From contig DATLTS010000035.1 of the NCBI GenBank assembly GCA_035533475.1, positions 18,507 through 82,506 of the forward strand: a stretch of DNA of 64,000 bases, given 5' to 3'. Below, piece after piece: positions 11,279 to 39,234 of the stretch. Within the stretch, counting starts at the first letter, position 1, and every line of letters starts with the position of its first letter. The notes under the pieces were generated by a model. It did not search any database, was not told the origin of the DNA, and saw only the letters and a program-made list of their open reading frames with translations. Both the position numbers and the translations under genes were made by a program. This DNA is from Mycobacteriales bacterium (lineage in GTDB: Bacteria; Actinomycetota; Actinomycetes; DATLTS01).

Positions 11279-12576
11279 CCGACCGGACTCTCCGGACTCG
11301 TCGCCGGCTCTTCGGTACTCAGCTCGGCGGGTGCGGGTTCGGGATGGGGGGCGGGTTCTCGACGGCGCCAGTCCTCCGGAATGGTCGCTTCGAGCACATC
11401 GTCGACCGTGATGACCCCGACAACGTGATGCTCGTCGTCGGCGACGGGGATCGTCACGAGGTTGTAATCGCTCATCAGCAGCGCCACGTCGATAACGTCC
11501 GAGTCGGCGTGGACATGAACCGGGTCGGACTCGCCGATCTCGGCGAGCCGAACGTCCGGAGCGGACTGGACGAGCGTCGTCAGCCGGACGAAGCCGGCCA
11601 GCTGGCCGAACTCATCGTGGGTGTAGATCCCGGTGAGCGCCTCCGGTTGGACCGCGGTCGCCACCCGGACCGCGTGCAGCGCCGCCGCGACGTCGGCGGT
11701 CGCCGGTACCGAGACGAAGTCGACCCCCATCAGGCCACCGGCGCTGCCCGGGTTGAACCCGAGCAGGGTCAGGACCCGGGTGCGCTGGCCCGCGGGAAGC
11801 AGGTCGAGGACCGGCTGCCGGCGGCTCTGCGGCAGCTCCGCGACGGCGTCTGCGGCATCGTCAGCCCGCATGTGGGCGAGCACGTCGGCGACCTGATCGT
11901 TGGTCCGCGCGCCGAACAGGCGGCTCTGTAGGTCCGGGTCGATCTCCTCGAACACATCCGCCTCGAGTTCGGGGTCGCTGTGCACCACGTCGAGGATCTC
12001 GGTGCCCTCCTCTTTCGACGCGTCCTCGAGGAGATCCGCGATCTGGGCGGGCTTGAGCCGTTTGACCCGGCCGAAGGGGCCGCGCAGGGTAGCGCTGGCC
12101 GCGTGTCCGATCAGGGGCTCCAGCGCCTTCCAGTCCTCCTTGCCCTGGGCCATCGCTCCAGAGCCCCTCCGGAACAACCGGGACGGTCGGTGGGTGTCGA
12201 CGGCACAGACCGACCAGCCCTCCGGCCCGTGGACCAGCTCGACGTCCCAGGCGCGGACCAGCCGTGCGTCGGCCACGTCGATGAGCCTGTGCCGCAGGAC
12301 GTCCGCGCGCAGCAGCACCTCCCCCTCACGGCGCTCGAACCGGCGGACGTCGACGGTCTGCCGGGCGAGCTGGAGCGGAGCCTGCGACAGCTCGCCAATC
12401 CCGCCGGCGGGGACGAACACCTCGCGCCGCGCAACCTTGGCGGCGATCCCGATGACCAGCGGGTAGGCGTCACCCTGGAGCCGGACCACCACATCGGAGA
12501 GCCGGCCTACCGCCTCGCCACGCCGATCGACGATTGACCTGCCGAGCAGCTGGGAGAGGTGCACGCTGTCGGTCAC
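11275..12576 (-). CDS. PRC-barrel / MgtE_N / CBS-domain protein (no membrane part)
   Basis: A 433-residue soluble protein. PRC-barrel-like segments cover about residues 1-150 (LLGRSIVDRRGEAVGRLSDV). An MgtE_N superhelix covers about 160-270 (LKPAQIADLLEDAS ... MRADDAADAVAELPQSRR). Two CBS domains follow at about 275-400, and the tail is acidic and proline-rich. In MgtE channels the N and CBS domains sense Mg2+ and gate the pore; this protein has no transmembrane segment. Its stop overlaps the start of the NRAMP-type transporter (ATGA), so it is probably a detached Mg2+ sensor for that transporter. That partnership is inference from coupling. Confidence 0.88.
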   Translation of the reverse strand: MTDSVHLSQLLGRSIVDRRGEAVGRLSDVVVRLQGDAYPLVIGIAAKVARREVFVPAGGIGELSQAPLQLARQTVDVRRFERREGEVLLRADVLRHRLIDVADARLVRAWDVELVHGPEGWSVCAVDTHRPSRLFRRGSGAMAQGKEDWKALEPLIGHAASATLRGPFGRVKRLKPAQIADLLEDASKEEGTEILDVVHSDPELEADVFEEIDPDLQSRLFGARTNDQVADVLAHMRADDAADAVAELPQSRRQPVLDLLPAGQRTRVLTLLGFNPGSAGGLMGVDFVSVPATADVAAALHAVRVATAVQPEALTGIYTHDEFGQLAGFVRLTTLVQSAPDVRLAEIGESDPVHVHADSDVIDVALLMSDYNLVTIPVADDEHHVVGVITVDDVLEATIPEDWRRREPAPHPEPAPAELSTEEPATSPESPVG

Positions 12577-12609
12577 AGGGTCACCCTAAAGGTCCCAGGT
12601 TCGGCCCGG

Positions 12610-13083
12610 CTATCGGTATTCCGGCCACGGGGTAGGGGCCGCACCGGCCAACTGGCGGCTGAATTCGCCGAGAAACCAACGGCGGAACCGGACTTGATCG
12701 GGCGCGGTGGCGAGGGTCAGCAGATGCCGGCCGGCCCGGCAGTACTCGTCGGCCTCGTCGAGGATCTCCGCCAGGTGCATCACGGCGGGACCGACCTCGG
12801 CCGGCACGTGGTAGGTGAGATCGGGGATCGTCGTCTCCCCGTCAGCCACGGCGTCCGCGAGACGCTCTTCCTGTTCGGCGGCGAGGCCGCCGTAGCTCGC
12901 ATTCAGCTCCCCGATCAGATCGATCAGCCGGAGCGGGAGCGCCGTCTCGCTTCGCTGCCGCAGCTGCTCGGCGATCAGCGAGAGCTCCCGCCGGAGCGCT
13001 TCGCTGTGCTCTTGCGTGCTGGCGTACAGGCCCACCGGCAATTCCAGCAGGTGGACCTCGTGCAACTCCGCGATCACGGTCAC
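12610..13083 (-). CDS. Unrecognised partner protein of the GHKL-ATPase module, copy A
   Basis: A 157-residue, mostly helical protein I do not recognise. It is clearly related to the 177-residue product at 14111-14644. Both share a LTY-x-VP segment, an EAD-x-YCR segment, LLTLA and the near-terminal FR-x-WFL-x-EF-x-RQLAG followed by P-x-x-W. The N-terminal half is a coiled-coil-prone helix. The GTG at 13083 overlaps the ATPase stop (GTGA), so the ATPase is translated first and the two are coupled. The invariant charged and Cys/Trp positions suggest a specific binding surface. A role as target or co-regulator of the ATPase is inference. Confidence 0.75.
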   Translation of the reverse strand: MTVIAELHEVHLLELPVGLYASTQEHSEALRRELSLIAEQLRQRSETALPLRLIDLIGELNASYGGLAAEQEERLADAVADGETTIPDLTYHVPAEVGPAVMHLAEILDEADEYCRAGRHLLTLATAPDQVRFRRWFLGEFSRQLAGAAPTPWPEYR

Positions 13084-13556
13084 GCGGCGGATGCCCGGGG
13101 TCCGCCCGGAGCCGGCCGGCCGCCGTCTTCGAATGCGGCGAGCAGGGTTTCGACGTCGGCGACCTCGACGTCGTCGGTCGCCACGTCGTGGCTCACCAGC
13201 TCGGACCAGACCACCTTGCCGCCGGCGTCCCGATGCGTTCCCCAGGCCCGACTAACGTCCCGGACCAGGGCGAGTCCCCGGCCGGTCGTGGCGTCCGGAC
13301 CGTAGTTCCGGACGCCGGGTCGGCGGGACGAGCCGTCCCGAACCTCCAGCCGGAGCGAACCGTCGGACAGGATGAGGGTGACCGTGAAGGGGGTGCTCGC
13401 GTGCAGGACGGCGTTGGTGGCCAGCTCGCTGAGCACCAGCCCGGCGACCCACTCGAAGTCCGTGGCTGACCAGCTGGCGAGAACCTCCGCGGAGAATCTG
13501 CGCGCGCTGCGGACGCTGCTCGCATCCGGGGGGAAGACACGCTCCGCCTGCCGCAC
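13080..13556 (-). CDS. GHKL-type ATP-binding protein (anti-sigma-kinase-like), copy A
   Basis: A 158-residue HATPase_c_2 protein of the RsbW/SpoIIAB type common in actinobacteria. The N box is LSELATNAVLHAS at about residues 41-53. A VRDGSSRRP segment follows, then GPDATTGRGLALVRDVSRAWG with the G box. These proteins usually bind and may phosphorylate anti-sigma-factor antagonists. I chose the GTG at 13556 because it opens the typical compact fold; the frame stays open far upstream but would overlap the divergent copy B. The downstream partner is coupled by GTGA. Copy B at 13653 is its mirror image. Confidence 0.85.
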   Translation of the reverse strand: MRQAERVFPPDASSVRSARRFSAEVLASWSATDFEWVAGLVLSELATNAVLHASTPFTVTLILSDGSLRLEVRDGSSRRPGVRNYGPDATTGRGLALVRDVSRAWGTHRDAGGKVVWSELVSHDVATDDVEVADVETLLAAFEDGGRPAPGGPRASAA

Positions 13557-13602
13557 CTCGGCATCGTAGCCAGGCGCCCACGGGACCCTGGGTCTCGCCC
13601 GA

Positions 13603-13613
13603 CACAATAGGAG
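13603..13613 (+). promoter_or_regulatory. CACAATAGGAG motif, possible promoter -10 element
   Basis: The 11-mer CACAATAGGAG lies in the 96-bp gap between the two divergent GHKL genes, 40 bp before the rightward start. The same 11-mer recurs at 15627-15637, 39 bp before the L,D-transpeptidase start. CACAAT resembles an actinobacterial -10 hexamer. No convincing -35 box is visible at either copy. The identical position relative to both starts supports a shared promoter type. Confidence 0.35.
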
Positions 13614-13652
13614 GATCGGGCTGGGGCGGACTTGGGCCTTCGGAGGTTGCGC

Positions 13653-14114
13653 GTGGCGATGCGCGGCGACAGCGCCCGCTGGCCGCTCGCTGCCGAGGCG
13701 ATCTCGTTGCCGCCGAGTCCGGGGTCGGTGCGCCTTGCCCGTGACTACGTTCGGGTGCTGCTCCGGCGGTTGGGATGCGAGCCGCTCGTCGAGGCCGCCG
13801 CGGTGGGAGTGACCGAGCTGGTGACCAACGTGGTGTTGCACGCCCGGACCCCCATGACCGTGGGAGTCCGGCTGTCCGGCCGCGGGGAGGTCCGGATCGA
13901 GGTCGCCGACGGGTCCGCCGTCCCCCCGCAGCCACGGGCCTACGGGCCGACCTCTGGGACCGGGCGGGGCCTGCTGCTTCTCGGGTCGGCGTCGACCGCC
14001 TGGGGAGTCGAGCGCGCCGGTCCGGACGACGGCAAGGTGGTCTGGTTCCTTCCGGCGAGCGATCTGGCAGCTGGCGACTCCGGCCGCTCCGGGTCGGGGG
14101 GCACGCGGAAGTGA
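13653..14114 (+). CDS. GHKL-type ATP-binding protein (anti-sigma-kinase-like), copy B
   Basis: A 153-residue HATPase_c_2 protein. The N box is VTELVTNVVLHAR at about residues 55-67. VADGSAVPPQPRAYGP and SGTGRGLLLLGSASTAWG follow, matching copy A block by block. The GTG at 13653 follows GGAGG at 13642-13646 with six bases between; an ATG at 13659 is the alternative. The stop overlaps the GTG of the partner gene exactly as in copy A. The two ATPases start head to head with 96 bp between, so both modules probably share a control region. Confidence 0.85.
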   Translation: MAMRGDSARWPLAAEAISLPPSPGSVRLARDYVRVLLRRLGCEPLVEAAAVGVTELVTNVVLHARTPMTVGVRLSGRGEVRIEVADGSAVPPQPRAYGPTSGTGRGLLLLGSASTAWGVERAGPDDGKVVWFLPASDLAAGDSGRSGSGGTRK

Positions 14115-14644
14115 CGGCGGGCGACGATTCGGCGGCGGTTCTCGGCCGGTACACGGCCGGCGCTCCCCCCGGCGAGGAGAGCGTTTCCGTGGAACTGCTC
14201 AACTTCCCGCTTCAGCTGTTCGCCGCGGCCCGGGAGCGCCACGACGAGTTGATGCGTGAGTTCGCACTGCTCGCGCTCGCGCCCGACCTCGAAGCCGACC
14301 GCCGCGCGCTTCCGGCCCGGCTCGCCCAGCTGGTCGAGCTGCTCGGCCGGCGCTACGCGGCGGCCGGGGTGCGCATCGACTCGAGCCGGGACGCGGCGGT
14401 CGCCCGAGGCGAGCTGGCGATGGATCTCACCTACCAGGTGCCTCGGTCGGCCGGCGCGGAGATGGCGAGCCTGCATGACCTGATCGTGGAGGCTGACGCC
14501 TACTGTCGGGACGAGCAGCTGCTGACCCTCGCACCCGACGCCGAGCAGAAGAGCTTCCGGGACTGGTTCCTCCAGGAGTTCGTTCGCCAGCTCGCCGGTG
14601 AGCCACCGCGCCGGTGGGACGGACCCATGACCGCGAGCGGTTGA
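14111..14644 (+). CDS. Unrecognised partner protein of the GHKL-ATPase module, copy B
   Basis: A 177-residue homologue of the product at 12610-13083, about 20 residues longer at the N-terminus (a low-complexity Gly/Ala/Pro stretch). The shared signatures are MDLTYQVP, VEADAYCRDEQLLTLA and FRDWFLQEFVRQLAGEPP followed by RRW. The GTG at 14111 overlaps the ATPase stop. No signal peptide, membrane helix or known catalytic motif is visible. It begins 3' of its ATPase in the same order as copy A, so ATPase and partner likely act together. Confidence 0.75.
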   Translation: MTAGDDSAAVLGRYTAGAPPGEESVSVELLNFPLQLFAAARERHDELMREFALLALAPDLEADRRALPARLAQLVELLGRRYAAAGVRIDSSRDAAVARGELAMDLTYQVPRSAGAEMASLHDLIVEADAYCRDEQLLTLAPDAEQKSFRDWFLQEFVRQLAGEPPRRWDGPMTASG

Positions 14645-14661
14645 CCGATGGCAGCGCTTCG

Positions 14662-15558
14662 ATGAGCGGTCACGGGCGTCCGGCCGATCTGCGCCGGCTC
14701 ACCGCAGCCCTCGCCCTGGTCGGCGGATTCACCGTGATCGAGGTCGTCGCCGGGGTGTGGTCGGGGTCCCTCGCACTGCTCGCGGATGGCGGCCACCTGC
14801 TCGTCGACGCGGTGTCACTCGCGGCGGCGATCCTCGCCGCCCGGCTGGCCTCGAGACCGGCCCGCGGCTCGTGGACGTTCGGCTTCCAGCGGGCCGAGAT
14901 CCTTTCCGCGGCGGGGAACGGGGTCACGTTGCTGGTCGCCGCGGCACTGGTCACCGTCGAGGCGATCCGGAGGCTGCTGCACCCGTCAGCGGTCGGCGGC
15001 CGGACGATGGTCGCCGTCGCCGCGGCCGGGATCGTGCTCAACCTCGCGGTGGCGTGGGTGCTGCTCCGGGCCGACCGGTCCAACCTCAACGTCGAAGGCA
15101 GCCTGCGCCACGTCCTTGCCGACCTCGGGGCTTTTCTAGCCACCCTCGTCGCGGGGGTCGTCGTCCTCGCGACGGGATCCCGGCAGGCGGACTCGGTTGC
15201 CTCGCTGCTCGTCGCGTTGCTGATGGTCGACGGAGGTCGGCGGCTGCTCGCGAAGTCCGGGCGGGTGCTACTCGAGGCAGCGCCCAAGTCGGTCGACCTG
15301 GCCACGGTTCGGGCGCACCTGCTCGAGACCCCCCACGTGCGCGACGTACACGACCTGCACGTCTGGACGGTGACCAGTGACCTGCCCGCCTTGTCCGCGC
15401 ACGTGGTCGTCGCCGACTGTTGTTTCCGAGAGAACCACGCGCCGCGGATTCTCGACGATCTCCAGGGTTGCCTCGTCGGTCATTTCGACGTCGATCACTC
15501 GACGTTCCAGCTGGAGGCCGCGGACCACGCGGCGCACGAGGCCGGGCTACACGACTGA
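14662..15558 (+). CDS. Cation diffusion facilitator (zinc-type) efflux transporter
   Basis: A 298-residue CDF protein with six membrane helices. The metal site is HLLVD in helix 2 (LLADGGHLLVDAVSLAAA at about residues 39-56) and HVLAD in helix 5. This HD/HD pair is the usual signature of Zn2+ transporters of the CzcD/ZitB group. A C-terminal cytoplasmic domain of about 90 residues contains VHDLHVWTVTSDLPALSAHV. CDF proteins export Zn2+ (sometimes Co2+ or Cd2+) in exchange for protons. The start at ATG 14662 is only 17 bp after the partner B gene, so read-through is possible, though a functional link is not obvious. Confidence 0.92.
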   Translation: MSGHGRPADLRRLTAALALVGGFTVIEVVAGVWSGSLALLADGGHLLVDAVSLAAAILAARLASRPARGSWTFGFQRAEILSAAGNGVTLLVAAALVTVEAIRRLLHPSAVGGRTMVAVAAAGIVLNLAVAWVLLRADRSNLNVEGSLRHVLADLGAFLATLVAGVVVLATGSRQADSVASLLVALLMVDGGRRLLAKSGRVLLEAAPKSVDLATVRAHLLETPHVRDVHDLHVWTVTSDLPALSAHVVVADCCFRENHAPRILDDLQGCLVGHFDVDHSTFQLEAADHAAHEAGLHD

Positions 15559-15676
15559 GCAACCCTCCACCGGGTTACGGCGTCATCTAAATGGGGATGC
15601 CGGATGCGCGGAACCCGGCACCCGGGCACAATAGGAGTCCCGCGGATACGCTGGACCCGGCGCGGGGGCCGAAAGG

Positions 15677-36146: not shown

Positions 36147-37436
36147 CTAGCCAGGCTCGTCGTGGTCGTCCCCCGAGGCGCTGCCGCCGAGCGCCTCGTC
36201 CTCCCGATAGTCGCTGGCGATCTGGATGGCTTCGCTCTGCGGCTGGTACCCGGGGTCGAGCCGGATCAGATCCCATTCGTTGATCCAGGCCCGGACGTAC
36301 TGTCGCATCCGTGTTGCGCCGAGTCTTTCCAAACCCGAGACGTCCGGCGGTGACCAGCCGAACGCGGCAGCGTGCAGCTGTTTGATCGTCGAGTACGCTC
36401 GATCAAGCTCGCCACGGTCGGGTGGGCTGAGCAACAGCATGTCTCGATCGATGTGGCGCATGCCCGCCTCGGCGAGAGTCGCCGTCTCGTCCCACTCCGG
36501 GGTCTCCCTCCCCCGCAGCTTCGCGGGCACCTGCCCGCGATCGTCCTTGCCGGACAGCACGGCCGCCTCGAAGTCGTCCGTCATGGCCAGCACACCGACG
36601 AGCGGCGCCCGCTGCGCTGCGTCGCCGTCGAGCCAACGGGCCACCTCCGCGTACGACCGGCCGCGCTGAAGCAGGGTGTACCGCCCGATCAGCTCGACCT
36701 CGTCAAAGAGAATCACCCAGCCGGCGTGCCCCGCGGCTCGCAGCAGCCGGGCGATGAAGCGGAACCGCTGCCTGGCCAGGTCACGGGCGGAGATCGGGGA
36801 GAAGGTGTACATCCCGCCGGCGCCGACCGCCCGCAAGGCACGGCGCAGGTCGGACACTCGCAACGGGTCACCCGCCCAGAATCGGACGAGGGCGTCGACG
36901 GTTTCGTCGCTGCCCGGCACCTCCCCACCCCGCAACCGCTCATGGCAGAGCAGTGTCGCCGCGAAGCGCTCGTCCGGGGCACCGGATTGCGCGTTCAGCC
37001 AGCGGCTGAGCTCGGCGTAACGCGGGGAATCGGCGTCGAGTGACGCCGCGGCGTCCGACACGACCCCGTGGGTGCGGCCGGGGCCGACAGCGCCGTGGAC
37101 CGCTGCCCGAAAGGTCTTCACCGGGTCGTGCAGTGGTGTTTCCTTGCTGATCACCACAGTGCTGACCACGAAGCCGGCGGACAACGCGAGATGGGCCAGA
37201 TGCGTCAGGAGGTGGGACTTGCCGGATCCGAAGCCACCTCCGACCAGCAGCGCCGTCGAAGCGCCGGAAGCGGGTATCGAACCGTCCAGCGCGGAGAGCA
37301 ACGCAGTGAACCGGTCCTCGGCCTCGGGCTGACCCGAACCCAGGGCGGCGACCGCGTCCCAGCTCGGCACACCCGAGCGCAGCGCCTCCACGGCGCGGCG
37401 GCGACTGACCTGTTCGGCGCTCATGCGGTTGCTCAC
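36147..37436 (-). CDS. BrxD/DUF2791-like P-loop ATPase
   Basis: A 429-residue AAA-like ATPase. Walker A is GGGFGSGKSHLLTHL at about residues 66-80. Walker B is GWVILFDEVELIGR at about 240-253. The late block TRMRQYVRAWINEWDLIRLDP fits the BrxC/BrxD P-loop family (DUF2791). Those proteins act in phage defence by BREX and related systems, loaded on DNA with helicase partners. It is the last gene of a three-gene coupled operon, with its start inside the stop of the degenerate paralogue. No BREX methyltransferase, helicase or PglZ is encoded here. Confidence 0.8.
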   Translation of the reverse strand: MSNRMSAEQVSRRRAVEALRSGVPSWDAVAALGSGQPEAEDRFTALLSALDGSIPASGASTALLVGGGFGSGKSHLLTHLAHLALSAGFVVSTVVISKETPLHDPVKTFRAAVHGAVGPGRTHGVVSDAAASLDADSPRYAELSRWLNAQSGAPDERFAATLLCHERLRGGEVPGSDETVDALVRFWAGDPLRVSDLRRALRAVGAGGMYTFSPISARDLARQRFRFIARLLRAAGHAGWVILFDEVELIGRYTLLQRGRSYAEVARWLDGDAAQRAPLVGVLAMTDDFEAAVLSGKDDRGQVPAKLRGRETPEWDETATLAEAGMRHIDRDMLLLSPPDRGELDRAYSTIKQLHAAAFGWSPPDVSGLERLGATRMRQYVRAWINEWDLIRLDPGYQPQSEAIQIASDYREDEALGGSASGDDHDEPG

Positions 37437-38455
37437 GGAACCGCCTCCAAGCGCACGTCCAGGCGGACCAGAGCGGCGAACGGGTTCGCCCGCCGACGGT
37501 CGCGAACCTCATCGGCGACGCGCAGCTGCAATGCGGTGTACGCGGGCAACCCGCGCGTCTCGTCGGTCACCAGCTCTGGCGGCATGACAGCGATCACAAG
37601 CGCGCCGCGGAACTCGTCCGTCGCGTCGATGAACTGGCGGAGCACCTCGTATGCGTCGAGCGCGGCGGCCTTCGCGTAGTAGAAGCCGGAACGGGAATCG
37701 ATCGGCGGCCGACGCGCCTCCGCCACGCGGGTGTAGTCGAGATACAGCACCAGCCCGGCGTGACCTGCGGACAACATCAGGGCGGCCGTCGAGGTGAGCA
37801 TCGCTCGTGCGTTATGCCGGCCGATCCGCTGGTAGATGAGCGACCCCCGCAACGCGGTGATCGAGCGCAATTCGCCTCGGAGCCAGCCGAGCACCGCCTC
37901 GCGTTCTGCCGGGTCGACGTCACCTGCCCCGAGCCGACTCTGGGCGAGCCGCAGGATCGCGCGGCGCATCTCGGGGGCCAGCGCCTGGTCGGCCAGCAGG
38001 CGTCGCTCCAGCACCCGGCGGACGCTGCGGTAGAGCTCACGGGAGTCGACGTCGTGGAGCCGCGCGACGGCCTCGAGGATCAGCCCGTCACCGGGCGGAA
38101 CCGGGAAGCCGGCGGCGTCATAGGCCGCCCGGACATGCGCCCCGGCCAGGTCGTCCCAGTCAAGGGACCTGGAGACGGCAAAGAAGATCTGGTCCACCAT
38201 ATGCAGTCGGGTCGACTCCGCGGACACCGCCAGGTGCAGGCAGCCGACACGCGCGGCAGCAGCGGCGAGCGTCGCCTCGAACCGGTCGGCCGCGCCGGCG
38301 TCGCCGACGACCGCGACTTTGACCGCACCCCCGCCGGCCGGCAGATAGCACGTCAGGTACTCGTCGGCCAGGAAGGCCGCATAGTCGTCGACCTTGAGGA
38401 CGCCGCCGCCGAGGACACCGCTCGGCGGCACGGCGGCCGGCCCGGGCGCGGTCAT
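37433..38455 (-). CDS. Degenerate BrxD-like paralogue
   Basis: A 340-residue protein of the same fold as the next gene. The region AGHAGLVLYLDYTRVAEARRP (about 231-250) aligns with AGHAGWVILFDEVELIGRY of the ATPase, but the Glu of Walker B is a Tyr. No Walker A is left; VAVVGDAGAADRF lies at the expected place. It probably does not hydrolyse ATP and may be a structural or regulatory subunit in a mixed ring. Both ends overlap its neighbours by 4 bp (ATGA), which suggests fixed stoichiometry. Confidence 0.68.
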   Translation of the reverse strand: MTAPGPAAVPPSGVLGGGVLKVDDYAAFLADEYLTCYLPAGGGAVKVAVVGDAGAADRFEATLAAAAARVGCLHLAVSAESTRLHMVDQIFFAVSRSLDWDDLAGAHVRAAYDAAGFPVPPGDGLILEAVARLHDVDSRELYRSVRRVLERRLLADQALAPEMRRAILRLAQSRLGAGDVDPAEREAVLGWLRGELRSITALRGSLIYQRIGRHNARAMLTSTAALMLSAGHAGLVLYLDYTRVAEARRPPIDSRSGFYYAKAAALDAYEVLRQFIDATDEFRGALVIAVMPPELVTDETRGLPAYTALQLRVADEVRDRRRANPFAALVRLDVRLEAVP

Positions 38456-39234
38456 CGGGCGTTTGGCGCGGTGAACGACACTCCCCAGTATCGCTGCTGC
38501 TGGCCGGTCTGGGCGACGGTGGTGAGCACGCCTGCGTTGCGGGTGCCGCTGCTCGCGTGCCAGCGCAACGTCCGGCCGCCTTTGGTCGTCAGGGTGCCCG
38601 TCTGGTCAAGCAGGTACAGGTCGCGGGCGAACTCGGGCCGGGTGTAATCCCTCGCCTGGCCGGGCAGCAAGGTCAGGACGGCCCAGACGTCGGTCAGCCG
38701 AACGACTGCATCCGGCTTCTTGCCCGTCCGAGCGACGGCCAGCTCATAGCCTGAGGCGAGGCTTTCGAGGAACTGATCGGCCCGGAACTTCGGCGGACGC
38801 TGCTGGAGCACCGCCAGCAGCTCGACCACGACCGATGGCCGTAAGCGCCGCTCCCGACGCCGGTCGATCTCGATTGCCGAGTCGCTCGGCACGACCCGGA
38901 CCAGGGACGGGTAGCACAGCAGCCGCTCGTCCTCCTCGAACATCGCTATCCGGCGTTCCGCGGCCACCGACAGCAGCTCCTTGGAGTACTCACCCGACGC
39001 CAGGTACGCGGTCTCGTCGAAGTCGAACGCGGCGCGGCCCTCACCCGCCGCGGCCGCCAACTCCGTTGCCAGCCCCGCCGCCACCTCCAGGGCGCGCCGC
39101 AGTTCGCGTACCTGACCGGCGGCGGCCGCCGTCCGCGCCTTGCGAAGCTCGCGAGTGACCCCGTTGGCCACCTTCAACGTAGCCTCCGCCCGCGCCTGCG
39201 CGGCCCCGAGCGCGCCTTCCAAGCCAATCGACAT
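38452..39234 (-). CDS. Unrecognised protein, first gene of the BrxD-like operon
   Basis: A 260-residue protein I do not recognise. A long helical, coiled-coil-prone N-terminus (about residues 5-65) is followed by a globular part with [20 protein letters not shown] and [15 protein letters not shown] near the end. The ATG at 39234 is preferred over one at 39264 because GGAGGGGAG precedes it. No signal peptide or membrane helix is visible. The C-terminus is beta-rich and may be a winged-helix or nucleic-acid-binding fold, a guess only. It is coupled to the degenerate paralogue. Confidence 0.65.

Follow-up and report, generated by a model that had tools for sequence, protein, structure and literature searches.

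Introduction

What does a three-gene operon do when its last gene encodes an ATPase of the kind known from bacteriophage exclusion (BREX) defence, its middle gene a paralogue of that ATPase with a ruined active site, and its first gene a protein of no recognised family? The question is raised by a 64,000-nucleotide stretch of a Mycobacteriales genome (assembly GCA_035533475.1, contig DATLTS010000035.1, positions 18,507 to 82,506), called the window below. The three genes, here named A, B and C in order of transcription, lie on its minus strand, as do all of their features given below. We suggest that the trio most likely belongs to the kind of system that pairs an ORC/Cdc6-type ATPase with a superfamily 2 (SF2) helicase, and that two features set it apart from the known members: its pseudo-ATPase is conserved, and it has a third subunit, as yet unnamed.

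An Intact ATPase, Its Predicted Pseudo-ATPase Paralogue and a Third Protein

Gene A (38452–39234; 260 amino acids (aa), ATG start), gene B (37433–38455; 340 aa, ATG start) and gene C (36147–37436; 429 aa, GTG start) are three open reading frames. The initial annotation described them as coupled by 4 bp overlaps, and both junctions were verified, A/B at 38452–38455 and B/C at 37433–37436. Among related loci, window and broken copies counted, stop contexts compatible with ATGA or GTGA are found at 33 of 45 A-B junctions and 41 of 44 B-C junctions.

C is a BrxD-like ATPase. It is a member of family PF10923, BrxC_BrxD (64 bits; Pfam curated cut-off, 22.2). Its Walker A motif is GGGFGSGKS (37215–37241) and its Walker B motif ILFDE (36699–36713). 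The GxGKS and DE residues are invariant in all 39 aligned rows, which include the window and leave out L023, L031, L040, L044, L046, L048 and L049 as cut, broken or running beyond the contig (L numbers denote loci, G numbers genomes and C followed by a number contigs). Thus, the motifs first seen intact in the window are intact throughout, and C carries in every row the Walker A and Walker B expected of the active subunit of an ORC/Cdc6-type AAA+ assembly.

B also belongs to PF10923 (52 bits, same cut-off), but its P-loop has degenerated to VVGDAGAADR (38282–38311), and GKS/T is absent from 43/43 aligned rows, the window included and L031, L040 and L048 left out for the reasons just given. The Walker B position reads YLDY. 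Its Asp, D240 (37736–37738), is invariant, and the Glu that should follow is lost from all 43 rows, none of which has an acidic residue directly after the Asp. The two losses initially noticed in the middle gene are therefore a family trait. Arg-301, Arg-312 and Arg-322 are likewise invariant in 43/43 rows; they lie in a basic region (R301–R322; 37490–37555) at the location of the AAA+ arginine finger, and may serve as one. B is shorter than C by about 90 residues at the C-terminus. The ratio of nonsynonymous to synonymous substitution rates (dN/dS), taken over seven pairs, is 0.06–0.25 for B, as low as for A (0.08–0.25) and C (0.07–0.20); hence B is not a decaying gene. B is a maintained, predicted pseudo-ATPase. 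It is tentatively predicted to be an ORC/Cdc6-type AAA+ domain, and its best structural match is archaeal ORC2.

The predicted structure of A consists of an antiparallel helical hairpin in a PspA/SMC-like arrangement (residues 5–69; 39028–39222), an α/β middle part and a C-terminal winged-helix-like domain (residues 150–258; 38461–38787). We claim neither A nor B as a new fold. A was initially left unrecognised, and so it stands: the best Pfam match to the window's A has an E value of 0.14, a PADLOC search returned nothing for it, and of 53 A members no more than four are matched by any one Pfam or PADLOC family, even at E 0.1. One member matches DUF3375 (E 0.0078). The assignment of A to a known family is rejected. 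A chain of Wadjet JetABC appears in the Foldseek list of A at E 1.4, a lead only.

The trio is a conserved unit. Scored at E ≤ 0.001, relatives of A number 1565 among 7999 candidates and those of B 1507 among 7997. Scanning species genomes with the A alignment gave 43 loci from Actinobacteria (Acidimicrobiia included), Gemmatimonadetes, Chloroflexi and Deltaproteobacteria; two more, from G042 and G078, brought the total to 45. Cultured species that carry the trio include Micromonospora sicca, Catenulispora pinisilvae, Actinoplanes subtropicus and Phytohabitans suffuscus. By profile search, on which these counts rest because a simple gene caller mis-calls some of the GC-rich genes, A, B and C occur together and in the same order in 42 of the 45. 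The three missing are L031 and L040, where the sequence ends early, and L048, a broken copy; the 42 include split frames in L049 and L046 and a partial C at the contig end in L023 and L044. The split-frame copies at L048 (9875–13003) and L049 (9935–13718) possibly reflect decay or assembly errors. The evolutionary distances of the three proteins are correlated with one another (0.88–0.94 over 39 loci). A concatenated tree of 42 loci, rooted by our choice on a group whose operons carry an SNF2-Mrr helicase (see below), contains two fully supported clades, one of 25 loci that includes the window and one of 12 loci of the Acidimicrobiia type. The remaining loci are L057 and a group of four with a support of 0.71. 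The trio is beyond chance, its motif state being constant in all aligned relatives.

A Relative of BrxD outside BREX

B and C are relatives of BrxD, not BrxD itself, since on the NCBIfam BrxD equivalog NF033438 C scores 59.5 and B 54.6 bits, far under the cut-off of 350. The PADLOC BrxD scores are similar (C, 56.4 bits; B, 52.7 bits), and the PADLOC model of SngB, the ATPase of the Shango defence system, matches each weakly at 22.7 bits. When aligned to SngB, B is covered no further than its residue 315. No housekeeping family matched the ATPase better than DUF2791, the old name of PF10923.

Could the trio be what remains of a BREX locus? The genome-wide check for BREX consisted of PglZ and PF10923 searches. 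PglZ has no match in the window's genome; it occurs in 18 of 46 trio genomes (14 over cut-off) and on the trio contig in none. A BREX remnant is therefore rejected. The initial claim that the trio stands apart from BREX is borne out, and the prospect that its relatives always sit beside full BREX genes is not what the 46 contigs show.

Other PF10923 genes are found elsewhere in trio genomes. Strong matches occur in 13 of 27 genomes of the window's clade, in 40 of 294 genomes of the class and in 0 of 19 other trio genomes. The class control excludes the trio genomes G000 and G302, the latter being the same genome as G363 and counted once. The excess over the class has a Fisher probability of 5.6e-5, the 40 control matches being counted whether they belong to Shango or to BREX. 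Six of the strong matches, to full-length PF10923 genes, lie beside PglZ on contigs without the trio (G345 C46, G346 C24, G354 C355, G362 C50, G363 C274 and G369 C361) and are apparently BrxD of type 2 BREX.

A Helicase Partner beside the Trio

Outside the window's clade, an SF2 helicase is the next or next-but-one gene after C in 16/16 testable loci (L031, L040 and L044 end before this position). The motor differs with lineage. An XPB-like helicase follows C in 11 loci (L034, L036–L039, L041–L043, L046, L047 and L050); an SNF2 helicase fused to an Mrr nuclease follows, after a small protein of 162–196 aa, in four (L030, L033, L035 and L045); and an SNF2 helicase follows C in L057. Pfam was run on L038, L042, L033, L045 and L057, and the other helicases were assigned to these by phmmer. 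In the flanks of all 45 loci, the same partner queries match just two further helicase genes (L047 and L057), so the position beside the trio is not a matter of chance. The partner helicases retain their motifs, the Mrr D...QxK motif is kept in three of four, and the SNF2-Mrr motor matches the ZorD and DpdE models.

This bears on how the trio was first understood. Asked whether it travels alone, the survey gives a divided answer: by the partner queries it does so in most loci of the window's own clade (see below), but outside that clade every testable locus has a helicase next to C or one gene away, and the idea of an orphan module is rejected there. Likewise, the proposal of a compact system built on an active/inactive ATPase pair stands as to a conserved unit distinct from BREX and is not supported as to three genes forming the whole system. 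Since the helicase follows C wherever it can be tested outside the clade, the trio is better read as one part of a helicase system, its ATPase platform.

Kinship of the XPB-like helicase with PbeA was considered and rejected, because the match covers the helicase core alone and A, B and C match no Pbe model. PbeB-D are described as other proteins than A, B and C (PMC10853773, PMC6459918).

Two further proteins accompany these operons. Acidimicrobiia-type operons have a protein of about 590 aa upstream of A (L042, 8211–9977; L038, 7886–9439; L044, 799–2574; and eight more loci); it overlaps A in these three, and a profile built from it finds sigma-70 region 4 with a best E of 7.7e-6. The 162–196 aa protein between C and SNF2-Mrr is conserved (L033, 4425–4991; L030, 12980–13570; L035, 13594–14157; L045, 12991–13479). 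The L033 copy has no family match, and the profile of the protein finds no solved relative.

Proposed Mechanism

We propose, at somewhat less than an even chance, that A, B and C form an ORC-like platform divided among three chains, which would load or switch on SF2 motors of exchangeable type on DNA, probably against foreign DNA. The steps would be as follows. C would bind and hydrolyse ATP. B would sit beside C and offer it the invariant arginines; holding no ATP itself, B would not compete for it. A would anchor the complex on DNA. As C turns over ATP, the DNA would pass to the helicase, which is XPB-like, SNF2-Mrr, SNF2 or SWIM-SNF2 according to lineage. In the window's lineage the motor would lie outside the operon and be supplied from elsewhere, the candidates being the genome's own HelZ/SWIM pair and a Shango helicase. 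Phage or other invading DNA might be the target; this is the weakest step.

An arginine finger supplied by B alone is a candidate that has been weakened. C is basic in the same region (residue 306 is K/R in 38 of 39 rows and residue 308 is R in 35 of 39), so B is not the sole possible donor, and an interface between C subunits is possible too.

The Window's Clade, Where Motors Are Few

The clade of the window comprises 27 loci, of which 25 are placed in the tree and the other two are L048 and L049. None of them has an XPB-like or SNF2-Mrr gene after C. An adjacent motor, either an SNF2 helicase or a Shango locus, is found in eight. In two of these, a HelZ and SWIM gene pair follows C, with a candidate GTGA overlap in L016 and, in L017, a candidate start 4 bp past the stop of C. 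In L008 and L009, the gene divergent from A encodes an SNF2 helicase whose N-terminal part bears a SWIM-like CxC..CxH motif, for which there is no Pfam SWIM match. In L019, L022, L025 and L028, a Shango locus is divergent from A; Pfam finds in L025 a TerB_N/TerB_C protein, a full-length PF10923 ATPase and a DEAD helicase. A TerB gene reaches the contig end in L021 and L029. Downstream of the trio, small-gene pairs that look by eye like candidate toxin-antitoxin genes were seen at L009 (12723–13360), L024 (8689–9308) and L014.

The other 19 loci, the window among them, have no adjacent helicase by the partner queries; some are on short contigs, and two are those with a TerB gene at the contig end. 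In the window, ten partner queries gave no match in the 64 kb or in the contig's adjoining stretches of 18.5 kb and 19.5 kb. The motor may thus be dispensable in this clade, where the trio is conserved with none adjacent. With the tree rooted as we chose, at the SNF2-Mrr group, the operon helicase was lost in this clade.

These loci invite a different reading, which we consider distinctly unlikely: that the clade's trio acts alone as a DNA-bound ATP switch, either a replication sensor or a blocker, and that the helicases of relatives are add-ons. In its favour, A, B and C of motorless members remain under purifying selection, and the clade that contains them is fully supported. Against it, the helicase lies next to C, or one gene off, in every testable locus outside the clade, and within the clade three kinds of SF2 motor again adjoin the trio. 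Moreover, several motorless loci lie on short contigs.

The genome of the window (G000) has candidate motors elsewhere. Contig C44 (L055, 5283–11468) carries a Shango-type locus made of a TerB_N/TerB/TerB_C protein, a full-length PF10923 ATPase (500 bits) and a DEAD helicase. On the opposite strand nearby (12084–15563) is a gene with RNase_H_2 and AAA helicase matches. Contig C52 (L061, 6080–10182) carries an SNF2 helicase of the HelZ type, which contains DUF3670, and behind it a SWIM zinc-finger protein; gene pairs of this kind are what lies after the trio in L016 and L017.

The Shango locus on C44, together with the four divergent Shango loci and the two TerB genes at contig ends, raises the idea that the trio is an accessory that modulates TerB-SngB-SngC. 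It would act in cis in one group of the clade, and in the genome of the window it would do so in trans. We regard this as improbable. Outside the clade, 0 of 19 trio genomes have a strong SngB-type match (best E 9.8e-24), and within it 18 of 27 genomes have no strong PF10923 match free of an adjoining PglZ. Nine do, five of them in cis or probably so, and in trans such a match occurs in 4 of 22 (G000, G349, G355 and G369). Nor is the trio itself a Shango locus: neither TerB (SngA) nor the helicase (SngC) lies beside its ATPase in the window or the examined contig flanks.

Platform, Defence or Repair?

Returning to the loading platform, several observations weigh against it. With A or with B as the query, Foldseek alone gives no match with E < 0.001, and the winged-helix similarity of A is modest and not specific to ORC. 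The window has no motor within reach of the partner queries, and most of its clade shares this state. The basic residues of C leave the finger role of B less certain. As A was used to collect the loci, B-C pairs that have no A would escape notice. The excess of PF10923 genes in the clade is no measure of Shango, for PglZ adjoins six of the 13 strong matches, which look like BREX BrxD; enrichment of Shango in trans was therefore dropped, and a trans partnership is statistically unsupported. Finally, with A as the query, neither the 72,556 plasmids nor the 50,697 phage records searched gave a match, and viral contigs gave no confirmed one. Mobility of the trio is thus unsupported, and the idea of a mobile element is rejected.

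The last point leads to the question of what the platform would serve. We infer a defence role from the partner genes. It is favoured by the Mrr nuclease joined to a ZorD/DpdE-like motor, by the Shango neighbourhood and by the patchy spread of the trio; it is disfavoured by the ordinary neighbours of the window's trio, by the lack of plasmid and phage matches, and by the HelZ link, which is possibly housekeeping. A bolder reading is rather doubtful: A, B and C would be what the members of a hitherto undescribed defence family have in common. They would make up a three-chain ORC-like clamp with a dead ATPase subunit, to which bacteria join SF2 motors or nucleases, or even an entire Shango operon. 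In the lineage of the window, this clamp would have been freed of any motor in its operon and would command motors encoded elsewhere.

The same neighbours and the same HelZ link suit a chromosome-maintenance or repair module, in which the trio would have no part in excluding invaders and would instead bring an SNF2 helicase with a housekeeping role, HelZ/SWIM for example, to DNA that is damaged or stalled. The surroundings of the trio in the window are typA, a GNAT gene and ABC transporters, it was not found on the plasmids or phages searched, and the HelZ and SWIM genes on C52 would be a ready helicase. We judge such a module unlikely. The trio is present in 3/296 genomes of the phylum and 2/60 related genomes (the window's own counted in each) and in isolated lineages of Chloroflexi, Gemmatimonadetes and Deltaproteobacteria, unlike a maintenance gene. 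Furthermore, the motor of one lineage includes an Mrr nuclease and matches the ZorD and DpdE models, and another lineage adjoins a Shango locus.

Known Systems Compared

Archaeal and eukaryotic ORC/Cdc6 proteins sit on DNA as assemblies of AAA+ subunits, some active and some inactive, that carry winged helices, and they load a helicase. The trio would resemble them in its predicted active and inactive subunits and its putative winged helix, and the best structural match of B is to an archaeal member. It differs in being split over three small proteins and in its partners, which are SF2 helicases, whereas the partner of ORC/Cdc6 is the MCM helicase.

BrxD is itself classed among the ORC/Cdc6 AAA+ ATPases; its link to the helicase BrxHI is tight, and loading of BrxHI has been suggested (PMC12839542). 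The likeness to type 2 BREX is thus a PF10923 ATPase adjoining an SF2 helicase it may load; there, in contrast, a single full-length ATPase is surrounded by BREX genes, and the accessible text mentions no pseudo-ATPase or A protein (PMC12839542). In the BrxC dimer, ATP lies at the interface and the partner supplies finger residues (PMC13326643). BrxC carries its winged helix-turn-helix domains within one large chain (PMC12839542); the trio has ATPase, pseudo-ATPase and winged helix on three chains.

Shango, comprising SngA (TerB), SngB (ATPase) and SngC (helicase), has reported anti-phage activity (PMC10250203). Like the trio in its wider form, it unites a PF10923 ATPase and an SF2 helicase, and it adjoins the trio in four loci. 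In place of A it has a TerB protein, it has one ATPase, and B and C match SngB weakly.

Intact and degenerate copies are also paired in Orc/CDC6 proteins beside a KAP NTPase in predicted defence loci (PMC10853773). There, the second copy retains Walker A and it is Walker B that is disrupted (PMC10853773), whereas B has lost both Walker A and the Walker B Glu; the partners also differ. No description of the A-B-C trio was found in the literature searched, which mostly did not extend to subscription papers.

Significance

Why is an ORC/Cdc6-like ATPase paired with an SF2 helicase in defence operons such as BrxD-BrxHI and Shango? Helicase loading is the suggested reason, and no demonstration of it was found in the literature searched. 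The catalogues searched overlook the platform described here, as A has no convincing Pfam or PADLOC family and B and C fall far under the NCBIfam BrxD cut-off. Its relatives form a natural series, in which a constant platform with a dead paralogue is joined by an adjacent motor of at least three kinds, according to lineage, and in other lineages the motor is missing. The trio is thus a small, cloneable system in which both the loader idea and the role of a pseudo-ATPase subunit may be addressed.

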